Shown in pieces: positions 4,080-44,730 of a stretch of DNA of 47,525 nucleotides; within the stretch, counting starts at the first letter, position 1, and every line of letters begins with the position of its first letter. This DNA is from Candidatus Avelusimicrobium vaccinum. Its GTDB lineage: Bacteria > Elusimicrobiota > Elusimicrobia > Elusimicrobiales > Elusimicrobiaceae. The translations under genes and the position numbers were made by a program. Where the stretch lies: assembly GCA_902794895.1 (NCBI GenBank), contig CADBIY010000010.1:1-47525 (forward strand), read 5' to 3'. Under the pieces are notes generated by a model. That model was not told where the DNA came from. It searched no databases and saw nothing but the letters and a program-made list of their open reading frames with translations.

Positions 4080-4482
4080 AGAAAAGGCCCTCTGCATTTA
4101 TTCAACACAGAGGACCTAGTTATACGGCCTTTCCATTTTCACTCTCCAACTCAGAGGTTTGTTCCACAGATCAGAACCTTATTCTAACTCCCCAGTACCA
4201 GTAATCAGTTGCGCATACCCATATCTCCGGAATTCCCGCCTATCCTCAAATAAGCGGCCCACAGCTTGTGAATATGCCTTCGCACCTCAATTCCCAGCAC
4301 TGAAGTACAAATAAAGAACTCTTATTTTCTGTTCAGAACCCAAGAAATATCACGTTCTTCACGTCTCTACTTCCTACATTCTCAACAGCCGCTCTTATCT
4401 TAGAAAAATGTCTAAACGTCATTAGGTTTAGATCCTCTGTCTTAAATAAGAGCAATTCTGCCTCACAACCTCTAACGAGGAT
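4080..4482 (-). ncRNA. Orphan structured RNA of about 400 nt, family not recognised
   Basis: The region has no plausible coding frame but looks like a stand-alone RNA gene. On the minus strand it starts about 7 bases after a consensus promoter and ends in a 9-bp hairpin (4087-4116) with a short T-rich tail. Predicted stems include CCTC/GAGG near the 5' end, GCTCTTAT/ATAAGAGC enclosing TCTAAAC/GTTTAGA, an 8-bp stem in CCGCTTAT..ATAGGCGG, and a pairing of GAGGTT near the 5' end with AACCTC near the 3' end. I looked for RNase P signatures (GAAAGUCC, ACAGA), the tmRNA tRNA-like end, the SRP tetraloop domain and a 6S-type bubble and found none. The neighbour is an XRE-type regulator transcribed in the same direction from further upstream. 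Confidence 0.65.
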
Positions 4483-37779: not shown

Positions 37780-38784
37780 GTGGCTACCGTTTACGAGCAT
37801 ATTTCCCAAAACAAGCGGCGCACAGTGCTGCTTGTTTTATTATTTCCGCTTGTTTTTGCGCTTTTGTGCGGACTCACGTTTTTTGTTGTTTTTTTGCTTG
37901 CGGGAAATGGGGAACCTTGCGCTACTTGGAACGGGAGTGTGCTTTCTTGTGCGCAGGTGCATGCGGCAGGATCGCTGTTTCTTACGGTGCCTTTTGCCTG
38001 GCTGGCGGCAGTTGTATGGATGGTGATTGCTTTTTTTTCCGGTGATAAATGGCTGATGAGCGGGGCCGGAGCGATTGCCGTTACCCGCCAAGACCAACCG
38101 GAAATTTACCGCCTGGTAGAGAATCTGTGTATCACGCGCGGGTTACCGGTTCCGCGGATTTACATCATGGATGATGAGTCGTTAAATGCGTTTGCTACCG
38201 GGCGCGATCCGCAACATGCTTCGGTGGCCTTGACGAAAGGAATTGTTAAAAAATTAGAACGGGCCGAATTGGAAGGGGTCATTGCGCATGAACTAGCCCA
38301 TGTGGAAAACCGGGATATCCGGTTAATGCTTTTGACCATTGCCGGAATTTCTTTTTTTACATTTGCCGGAGAATGGTGCCTGCGTATGGCTTTATCTTCC
38401 GGTCGTTCCCGTAATTCCAAAGAAGGGGGAAGCGGCGCACTGGTTTGGTTGGTGTTGGGCCTGGTTTGTTTGGTATATGGCTATTTAATTGCACCGTTGA
38501 TTCGGTTGGCGGTATCACGCCAGCGGGAATATCAAGCGGATGCAACGGCTGCACTCACCACGCGTAATCCGCGTGCCTTAGCCCGGGCGCTTGCCAAAAT
38601 ATCCGCTGATCCGCGCGTAGAAGCGCTGGATCGTCGCGAAAGTATGGCGGCTATGTGTATTGCAAATCCGTTGGCGAAAGCCGGATTGTTTTCCGGTTTG
38701 TCGGGTTTATTTGCCACGCACCCACCCATTGAAAAAAGAATTGCCGTCTTATTAGATATGGATAGAGAAGTTTCTGGTGATTAG
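37780..38784 (+). CDS. htpX: HtpX-type M48 membrane metalloprotease
   Basis: The 334-residue protein has two N-terminal membrane helices (about 17-42 and 65-87), then the M48 catalytic domain. The zinc motif H170-E171-L-A-H174 is intact and the third ligand is E250 in REYQADATAAL. Two further hydrophobic stretches (about 185-205 and 220-245) fit the HtpX topology. HtpX degrades misfolded inner-membrane proteins. The start is GTG, supported by GGAG upstream and by the matching start of its paralogue at 43684 (MATxYxxIxxNKRR). It overlaps nothing and ends four bases before the convergent SpoIID gene. Confidence 0.95.
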   Translation: MATVYEHISQNKRRTVLLVLLFPLVFALLCGLTFFVVFLLAGNGEPCATWNGSVLSCAQVHAAGSLFLTVPFAWLAAVVWMVIAFFSGDKWLMSGAGAIAVTRQDQPEIYRLVENLCITRGLPVPRIYIMDDESLNAFATGRDPQHASVALTKGIVKKLERAELEGVIAHELAHVENRDIRLMLLTIAGISFFTFAGEWCLRMALSSGRSRNSKEGGSGALVWLVLGLVCLVYGYLIAPLIRLAVSRQREYQADATAALTTRNPRALARALAKISADPRVEALDRRESMAAMCIANPLAKAGLFSGLSGLFATHPPIEKRIAVLLDMDREVSGD

Positions 38785-42249: not shown

Positions 42250-42921
42250 CTAGAAAGACGGAACTAAATGCCCGTTTATCACACGCCCATGGGAAGCGGG
42301 CGAATTCGTGCTGCGTTTGACTGTTGTTTTACCGGGAACGCTACCCGTGAAGAAATAGATCTTTTTTTCTTCCGGACGGCTATTGATTAATAAAATCAAT
42401 TTTTTCCCTTCTACCGTAAAAGATAATTCCGTTTCCGCGGCTTTTGGATGTGAAATAGCAGGGGTGTAACGGGTATTAAATCCTTTTTTAGTCATAGGTT
42501 GTGTAAAAAAGCGCGTTAAAAACAAGACTTGTCCCGAGGTTAAAGAGATTAAATTCTCCGGTCGAGTCGCGTGAAAAGTATATCCTTGTAACGTATGGTT
42601 ATTTTTTGTTAACGCCTGAAACGCATGCAACCGTTGTGTGTAAAGGGCAGATTGCGATTGAACGGGCGCTTGTTCAAATTTACGGGCTGGAAACCCGTGG
42701 AAAGAAGTTCCTAACGCTCCGTTTGAATTAGCCATGTGTTCTTCTTTTTTAACAGCATTAATCCAAGGGGCTTTTTCTTCCGGTATCACGCGGGAAATGG
42801 CACGTTGAAGGCTACGAAACAATGGCGTAGCCGATGGTATGAACCCTTCATAAAATGTTTGTTGTGCAAAGAGAGGCGCACTAACCGCAAACAAAGCAGT
42901 GATTAAGATTAATTTTTTCAT
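42250..42921 (-). CDS. Unknown exported protein, 223 residues
   Basis: The protein has a clear signal peptide (MKKLILITALFAVSAPLFAQ) and no further membrane segment, so it is probably periplasmic or outer-membrane associated. The mature part is basic, without cysteines, and no domain is recognised. GGAGG precedes the ATG. It is followed by the shared terminator at 42204 and preceded by the terminators of the orphan RNA gene, so it appears to be a separate unit. Confidence 0.75.
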   Translation of the reverse strand: MKKLILITALFAVSAPLFAQQTFYEGFIPSATPLFRSLQRAISRVIPEEKAPWINAVKKEEHMANSNGALGTSFHGFPARKFEQAPVQSQSALYTQRLHAFQALTKNNHTLQGYTFHATRPENLISLTSGQVLFLTRFFTQPMTKKGFNTRYTPAISHPKAAETELSFTVEGKKLILLINSRPEEKKIYFFTGSVPGKTTVKRSTNSPASHGRVINGHLVPSF

Positions 42922-42999: not shown

Positions 43000-43025
43000 A
43001 AGGACCTATGTTATAGTAGGTCCTT
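43000..43025. terminator. Second terminator below the orphan RNA
   Basis: AGGACCTA (43001-43008) pairs with TAGGTCCT (43017-43024), with A-rich and T-rich flanks on both sides, so it can act in either direction. Confidence 0.8.
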
Positions 43026-43035
43026 TTAAAAATAT

Positions 43036-43457
43036 AAAACCCCCCGGTTTATCCAACCGAGGGATTATGTGTGACTTCTCATGTTTACTCCTTATACGTC
43101 GGACACTTGTGGACGAACGCATCAGGATTTTCCAACCGCACCTGTTTCCCGGATAAAGGCCGAAGCAATTTATCAACCTCCCGGTATTTAGGACCGTCCC
43201 ACAGGCTGCTTCACAGCAACCACATTCACGAGACGGGACGCCTCTTGCCTGATTCACCCGCTCCACAGATTAATTGCGGTTTCGGTGAATAGAAGTCCAG
43301 TCATGCTAAGCGGCAATCCTGTCAAGAGAAGAACCTTTCTTCTGCTTGCATTCCAAGCCCGCTTGCCAACAGAACTTATACGGCGTGCCTGCACCCTGCC
43401 CTAACGGTGCTTTTCCTTTCGGCCGCGGCCCTGATGTGCCCACGGATAAAGGGATGT
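43036..43457 (-). ncRNA. Second orphan structured RNA (about 380-420 nt), family not recognised
   Basis: No credible coding frame exists, yet the sequence folds very richly on the minus strand. The two ends close on each other: the 5' segment near 43440-43460 is complementary to GTGTCCGACG..TAAGGAGTAA near the 3' end (about 43083-43112). CATCAGG/CCTGATG and GGCCGC/GCGGTT stack inside. Internal hairpins include GCACC/GGGTGC, GCTTG/CAAGC, AGAAG/CTTCT, ATTCACC/GGGTGAAT, CTCTTG/CAAGAG and GGTTGCT/AGCAGCC. The RNA ends in an intrinsic terminator (43034-43064). AGGGCAGGGTGC recalls RNase P RNA, but GAAAGUCC, ACAGA and GGCUUA are absent. No tmRNA ends are seen. It is as complex as known ribozymes. 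Confidence 0.65.
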
Positions 43458-43463
43458 AATCTT

Positions 43464-43491
43464 AGTTTAATATAAAAGTAAAAAAAATCAA
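43464..43491 (-). promoter_or_regulatory. Probable promoter of the 43036-43457 RNA
   Basis: On the minus strand TTGATT (43486-43491) and TAAACT (43464-43469) are 16 bp apart, embedded in an AT-rich stretch that holds no gene (43465-43585). Confidence 0.55.
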
Positions 43492-43683: not shown

Positions 43684-44730
43684 ATGGCAACCGCATACGA
43701 CTATATTGCAAAAAACAAACGCCGCAGTATGCTTTTAATACTGCTATTTCCCATTTCTTCCGTGGTATTTGCTTATATTGCGGTGATGCTTTTTTTCTTC
43801 TTGTGGAGCGGATTGGATTATTTGCGTCCTACTTCTTATCTTACATTTAGCAGTACCTTGTCTGTTTTTCATGCAAAAGCACTGCGGGTGTGTTCTCTCT
43901 TGTTACCGCTTTGTTTTTTAACGGGAGCCTTTTGGGCTATGATTGCCGTTAAAGAAGGAGATAAAATTTTACTCAACCGGATTCGTGGCGTGCGGGAACT
44001 GTTTTATTTTGAAGCGGAAGAGGCTCATGATTTATTGGAAAATTTATGTATTGCTACCGGTATGCCGATGCCCCAAGTATATGTATTAGAGGATTCTTCC
44101 TTGAATGCATTTGCGGTGGGAGTTCGGCCGGAGGATTCCAGCATTGTTTTATCCCGGGGATTACTTGAAAAGTTAGAGCGCACCCAATTAGAAGGGGTCC
44201 TGGCCCAGCAACTGGCCCATATCCGCGCGTATGATGTGCGCATGATGAGCATGATTATTATGTGCTTGGCCTTTTTTACATTTGCCGGGGAAATTCTTGT
44301 TTATGGTACGGAGCGGGAAAATGTAGACTCGTGGCAAGAGGTGGTTCATCCAAACCGGATATCGGTACGCGTGCCCCTTTTAATGTATGTGGGAGTTGTC
44401 CTAATCGGATATGGCTATTTACTGGCACCACTCATACGTTTTGCGTTATCCCGCAATTATCAGTTTTTGGCGGATGCGCAAGCCGCTTTAATGACCCGCT
44501 ATCCCAAAGGATTATCCAAGGCTTTGTGGAAAATTAGCGAAGATAGCCGGCTGGAAGCACTCGACCATACCGACTTGCTTGGCATGTTGTGCGTGGATAA
44601 TCCGCATGCCAAGAAAACCTTATTTAACCGGTTGAGCGGTTTATGGGCTTCGCATCCGCCGGTAGAAGACCGCATTCGTGCCTTGAACGATATGGACGGC
44701 CTCTTTTTGCACTTGGAACGGCCTAAATAA
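43684..44730 (+). CDS. HtpX-like M48 paralogue with lost zinc site (pseudoprotease)
   Basis: The 348-residue protein is a paralogue of the HtpX at 37780, with the same start (MATAYDYIAKNKRRS), the same membrane helices and the same PPVEDRI ending. The catalytic HExxH is replaced: where HtpX has AHELAH this protein has AQQLAH (Q175, Q176, H179), and the third ligand Glu is Q260. Zinc binding and peptide cleavage are therefore not expected, although the frame is complete and the fold conserved. Inactive rhomboid and M48 relatives often act as regulators or adaptors. The start at 43684 is set by similarity to the paralogue; the upstream extension has none. No LemA gene accompanies it. Confidence 0.88.
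   Translation: MATAYDYIAKNKRRSMLLILLFPISSVVFAYIAVMLFFFLWSGLDYLRPTSYLTFSSTLSVFHAKALRVCSLLLPLCFLTGAFWAMIAVKEGDKILLNRIRGVRELFYFEAEEAHDLLENLCIATGMPMPQVYVLEDSSLNAFAVGVRPEDSSIVLSRGLLEKLERTQLEGVLAQQLAHIRAYDVRMMSMIIMCLAFFTFAGEILVYGTERENVDSWQEVVHPNRISVRVPLLMYVGVVLIGYGYLLAPLIRFALSRNYQFLADAQAALMTRYPKGLSKALWKISEDSRLEALDHTDLLGMLCVDNPHAKKTLFNRLSGLWASHPPVEDRIRALNDMDGLFLHLERPK

Follow-up and report, generated by a model that had tools for sequence, protein, structure and literature searches.

In bacteria, large structured RNAs without an assigned function are uncommon, and a family confined to gut phyla that have received little study can easily escape notice. In dual-function small RNAs such as SgrS and RNAIII, a structured or regulatory part is combined with an ORF in one molecule, and the encoded peptide is functional, conserved, and tens of residues long. 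OLE, GOLLD, and ROOL are large ornate bacterial RNAs whose function is unclear (PMC12286853). Additionally, ORFs of very few codons, with a strong Shine-Dalgarno (SD) sequence and a free peptide sequence, are found inside the leaders of protein-coding mRNAs: in axe-txe, a minigene of two codons exerts its effect on txe in cis, and ribosome binding to the six-codon mini-ORF of the LEE4 esp mRNA of EHEC has been reported to protect from RNase E, in-cis protection by the ribosome having been proposed there (PMC8708949).

The locus described here, RNA-1, lies within a window of 47,525 nt (the whole stretch of DNA analysed). Similar to OLE, GOLLD, and ROOL, RNA-1 is long, stand-alone, and elaborately folded, with a conserved multi-helix structure supported by covariation. 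Unlike them, it lacks an Rfam match, is a chromosomal single-copy RNA of one bacterial genus, varies more than twofold in length via an expandable arm, and carries a mini-ORF in its 3′ tail. This mini-ORF has the strong SD, the few codons, and the free peptide of the axe-txe and LEE4 esp minigenes (57 of 57 homologues, with near-neutral codons), but it is located at the end of a structured RNA rather than ahead of a gene. Compared with SgrS and RNAIII, RNA-1 likewise joins a structured part to an ORF, but the latter consists of 4-8 drifting codons fused to the terminator.

On the minus strand, positions 43491-43036 comprise a sigma-70-type promoter, an RNA of about 400 nt, and a terminator stem (43063-43040). 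The individual parts are as follows:

43486-43491, minus: −35 element TTGATT, matching TTGACA/TTGATT upstream of TATACT in homologues
43464-43469, minus: −10 element TAAACT (TATACT in relatives), from the sequence and homologues
43030-43457, minus: predicted RNA-1 transcript of ~430 nt, from fold stability (z -2.64) and a covariance-model match
43436-43449, minus: 5′ strand of closing helix P1, pairing with 43092-43106; compensatory changes occur in the closing helices of relatives
43158-43178, minus: conserved 3′ hairpin GGUUGAU-AAAUU-GCUUCGGCC, near-invariant among 40 aligned homologues
43092-43106, minus: 3′ strand of P1, partner of 43436-43449
43088-43093, minus: SD-like AAGGAG, from the sequence and homologues
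43065-43082, minus: mini-ORF ATG AGA AGT CAC ACA TAA (MRSHT); a mini-ORF lies here in 57 of 57 homologues
43040-43063, minus: terminator 1 stem-loop CCCTCGGTT-GGATA-AACCGGGGGG, abutting the mini-ORF stop, from the sequence and homologues
43001-43027, minus: terminator 2 (AAAAGGACCTA...TAGGTCCTTTT), a hairpin plus T-run, from the sequence

The two promoter elements are separated by a 16-nt spacer, and transcription is predicted to start about 7 nt past the −10 box and to end in the U-tract of terminator 1 (43039-43028). The minus strand is more stably folded than 100 of 100 dinucleotide shuffles, and the plus strand does not stand out against such shuffles (z -1.15). The 3′ part of RNA-1 (43030-43194, minus) is matched at E 4.4e-20 by a covariance model derived from the 26-row alignment A2, in which the window copy is one row. 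The initial annotation had described a multi-stem RNA of about 400 nt with a promoter, paired ends, and a double terminator, and this description holds for the minus strand: 43449-43436 pairs with 43106-43092 at probabilities of ~0.4-0.55 in the single-sequence fold of the window RNA, and both terminators are present, the second (about 43027-43001) falling just outside the annotated interval of 43036-43491. A similar second hairpin lies 3′ of terminator 1 in a relative (G038). The mini-ORF at 43082-43065 had been overlooked.

A very divergent RNase P RNA had also been suggested, with the string AGGGCAGGGTGC as a hint, and RNA-1 does resemble RNase P RNA (RF00010) in its similar size, its closed ends, and this one short identical string. 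However, the search for another rnpB that the annotation had called for found a canonical, full-length gene elsewhere in the same genome of 1.45 Mb and 98.9% completeness (G000:C21:22209-22550, RF00010, 217.6 bits, E 1.7e-71). RNase P families give no match at the RNA-1 locus at E-values up to 10, and the string (AGGGCAGGGTGC / AGGGTGC) is not kept in relatives; the probability that RNA-1 is a divergent RNase P RNA is negligible. A tmRNA identity was rejected as well, given that ssrA sits elsewhere in the genome (G000:C2:107330-107675, 124.3 bits) and that ARAGORN recognizes tRNA-Thr alone, and no tmRNA, in the window. With all models of Rfam 15 (cmscan), nothing reached the gathering score at the RNA-1 locus, matches up to E 10 were terminator-like scraps only, and no homology to OLE, GOLLD, or ROOL was detected; Rfam searches at weak E-values with diverged homologues, the sister-genus short form, and RNA-2, a second large RNA of the window, likewise returned only terminator-like chance matches. 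A protein-coding gene was rejected on the basis of gap and ORF lengths: no independent coding signal was found over the RNA body, where, across 11 relatives, 159 of 170 gap runs have a length not divisible by three and the longest ORFs do not exceed those of shuffled sequence.

When the window RNA was used as a plain blastn query, relatives yielded little besides promoter and terminator pieces. The family was found by pairing such pieces that shared an orientation and had a spacing of ~450 nt; the sequence between them was a diverged RNA-1 homologue each time, the closest (in G039) showing 65% identity over 150 nt. The 3′-part covariance model, trained on 26 homologues, one of which is the window copy, gave one strong match per genome. 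With a model from 40 homologues, RNA-1 was detected, as one copy per genome, in 56 of the 66 genomes of its genus, gut Elusimicrobiaceae with UBA1436-type names, and in one genome of a sister genus (G066), whose copy had scored E 4.2e-5 with the first model, built without G066. Since the homologues share ancestry, these 57 copies do not represent 57 independent events. A scan for the hairpin pattern over the GTDB collection (85,000 species) identified 47 matching stretches, including 40 from Elusimicrobia-named (including UBA1436) or 'uncultured bacterium' records, among which the promoter is present in 39 and the mini-ORF in 39; in all seven stretches from other named taxa, both are absent. 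A phage origin was considered and rejected, as phage records gave no match; seven pattern matches in IMG/VR had neither promoter nor mini-ORF.

RNA-1 homologues range in length from ~215 to ~560 nt, the shortest (~215-225 nt) being those of G066, G003, and G027. Whatever their length, homologues keep the promoter, the 3′ tail, the closing helix, and one 3′ hairpin. The short forms display the core, which is made up of the closing helix, an inner helix, a single arm, expanded in other members, and the conserved hairpin GUUGAU-N5-7-G-N-UUCGGC with a UAAGUCC-like strand after it. Among the 145 base pairs of an alignment of 11 related long forms, pairing is maintained at 98.0%, and 29 of these pairs show compensatory changes, compared with 10.5 in shuffles; none of 500 shuffles reached 29, and a control with slid partners yielded at most 8 compensated pairs. 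In a second subgroup, 19 of 60 pairs are compensated, the closing helix included. The covariation check across relatives proposed in the initial annotation thus came out positive, and its other suggestion, a new large RNA class, is upheld by one copy per genome across the genus, covariation, and the lack of an Rfam match. No Elusimicrobia RNA of this kind was found in the open-access literature. We therefore hold with high confidence that RNA-1 represents a real, conserved, and previously undescribed RNA family with a kept mini-ORF.

Near-universal single-copy occurrence and core versions of ~215-225 nt would also suit a housekeeping RNA in disguise, that is, a very derived SRP RNA or 6S RNA missed by the models. 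Neither RF00169 (small bacterial SRP) nor RF00013 (6S) has a match at E 0.001 in the whole 98.9% complete genome, which leaves room for a housekeeping job for an RNA here. However, RF00013 recovers just 5 of 14 control genomes, and the genome-wide search with an SRP model covered RF00169, so that the absence of the usual SRP and 6S genes is not proven. Furthermore, the SRP and 6S models match neither the locus (E up to 10) nor a short homologue (E up to 5), the SRP helix-8 motif is not seen, and the short forms are predicted to fold into a branched closed structure rather than a 6S bubble, which makes this explanation improbable. An SRP-like hairpin regex run over the whole genome returned matches that resemble secA, 23S rRNA, or other unrelated sequence, and one candidate from this search was rejected because cmscan did not recognize it as SRP.

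Just outside the closing helix, all 57 homologues possess an SD-like site followed by an AUG-initiated ORF of 4-8 codons (exactly five in 53 of 57). The offset between its stop and the terminator stem is -3 to +2 nt; TAA, TAG, and TGA are all used, UGA being the commonest. No such tail of SD, mini-ORF, and terminator is attached to rnpB or tmRNA. In five-codon members, the stem begins ~16-21 nt past the A of the AUG, which is about where the leading edge of an initiating ribosome lies according to the established toeprint distance. Judged from this arrangement, the mini-ORF is probably translated, and its position suggests a tail made for ribosome occupancy in an otherwise non-coding RNA.

Start, stop, and spacing of the mini-ORF are kept while the peptide drifts (MRSHT in the window; METSR, MKEST, MKVQN, MHSCN, MTPSN, MNETK, MSNS, and MSSCKIEQ among the homologues). 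In codons 2-5, 43 synonymous and 140 non-synonymous differences were counted, i.e., 23.5% synonymous versus 19.2% expected; these differences are close to random, and the peptide is thus not conserved. This near-neutral drift of codons 2-5 suggests that selection acts on translation as such rather than on the peptide. That the penta-peptide is itself the product, as a signal or effector, is very unlikely: METSR and MKEST do persist within subgroups, but peptides of different subgroups are unrelated (MRSHT, MKVQN, MHSCC, MTPSN, MNETK) and their drift is near-neutral. Another explanation is a growth-regulating minigene, in which peptidyl-tRNA drop-off would drain tRNA or ribosomes and the folded domain would set the timing. 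Although ORFs of 4-8 codons with a strong SD fall within the sizes known for minigenes (PMC8708949), drop-off is set by the last sense codon, and this codon varies (AGA, AAC, AGT, CAG, ACA, ACG, AAG, and others), five codons are less toxic than two, and the commonest stop is UGA, not UAA, so we consider such a role unlikely.

The stop codon touches or overlaps the terminator stem in all homologues, an arrangement that would also be expected of an attenuator or leader, where a ribosome on the mini-ORF melts the stem and permits read-through downstream, with the folded domain acting as a sensor; in the window, a co-directional gene (42921-42250) indeed lies downstream. However, of the 52 loci with a downstream gene, 43 have the nearest one in convergent orientation, so that a regulated same-strand gene, as for a leader or riboswitch, is generally not found directly downstream, and there is not one constant gene, the downstream gene differing among RNA-1 loci. 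Terminator 2 intervenes in the window, and the form of RNA-1 is unchanged at loci where lipA and the lipoprotein gene point toward it. Since downstream genes are mostly convergent, a leader is an unlikely interpretation, and RNA-1, a stand-alone structured RNA, very probably works in trans.

With regard to the surroundings, lipA and/or the neighbouring lipoprotein gene are near RNA-1 in 42 of 54 loci. The co-directional downstream gene of the window (42250-42921, minus) encodes a fast-evolving protein that has no match in Pfam and is probably secreted; at 10 of the 54 loci examined, RNA-1 has a relative of it as a close neighbour, in varying orientation. Two M48 peptidase genes (37780-38784 and 43684-44730), which are adjacent in several relatives, are split in the window by the SpoIID-like, lipA, lipoprotein, and RNA-1 genes.

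The reading that we favour, with a probability of roughly 0.4, is that RNA-1 acts in trans and that its 3′ tail recruits ribosomes, which would protect or tether the RNA. At the sequence level, its basis consists of an own promoter, a closed domain with covarying helices, a variable arm, and a tail outside the closing helix. Ribosomes would initiate at the mini-AUG, with their leading edge approximately flush with the terminator hairpin, make and drop a meaningless peptide, and then re-initiate. The occupying ribosome would shield the single-stranded tail from nucleases and/or tether the folded domain to the translation machinery, and the level or action of RNA-1 would thereby track ribosome availability. 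However, an A-rich unstructured constraint between domain and terminator could mimic part of the codon pattern, and initiation so near a stable hairpin might be rare. RNA-1 is near-universal in its genus, with an unusual, easily mutated mini-ORF fused to the terminator; if ribosomes do sit on this tail, translation could protect, localise, or meter a non-coding RNA.

The combination of SD, mini-ORF, and abutting terminator occurs at exactly two places in the window, namely RNA-1 and 4136 on the minus strand. The latter belongs to RNA-2, whose parts are the following:

4516-4511 / 4494-4489, minus: RNA-2 promoter, TTGACA / TATACT, from the sequence
4086-4482, minus: RNA-2, a second large structured RNA, from its promoter, the same tail, and its own model
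4136-4116, minus: mini-ORF MERPYN, from the tail scan
4115-4086, minus: terminator, from the tail scan

RNA-2 contains the conserved blocks ACAGAAAATAAGAGTTCTTT and CACAAGC..GGGCC and, by its own model, was detected in 39 of the 90 genomes of the family, once in each. Among 30 RNA-2 loci examined, 22 could be located and read, and 20 of these have the mini-ORF, mostly of six codons. RNA-2 is apparently non-homologous to RNA-1, and the mini-ORF-terminator fusion is common to RNA-1 and at least one apparently non-homologous RNA. In a strict tail scan over 1.3 Mb of related loci, RNA-1 was matched 56 times (55 sorted automatically plus MVSTK) and RNA-2 22 times (21 plus MNKPVR), the remainder being a weakly model-scored copy in G009 and two unrelated places.

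A ribosome-loading mini-ORF may be a 3′-end architecture of several unrelated structured RNAs in one bacterial genus, an extension that we put forward tentatively and regard as somewhat doubtful. Under such an architecture, the distance from the mini-ORF to the downstream terminator hairpin would equal half a ribosome footprint, and the ribosome would serve as a removable cap or tether coupling these RNAs to translation capacity. The tail module could in that case be used to find more such RNAs, and a scan of the 1.446 Mb of the window's genome for promoter plus tail has already yielded a candidate third: five places were found, comprising RNA-1, RNA-2, candidate RNA-3, and two others that are probably due to chance. 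RNA-3, a candidate of ~105 nt with its own promoter (G000:C4 (L338), 17564-17420, minus), has a fold z of -2.98 and a tail ORF, MMMTLMS, that abuts the terminator; under this reading, it would probably share the architecture of RNA-1 and RNA-2.
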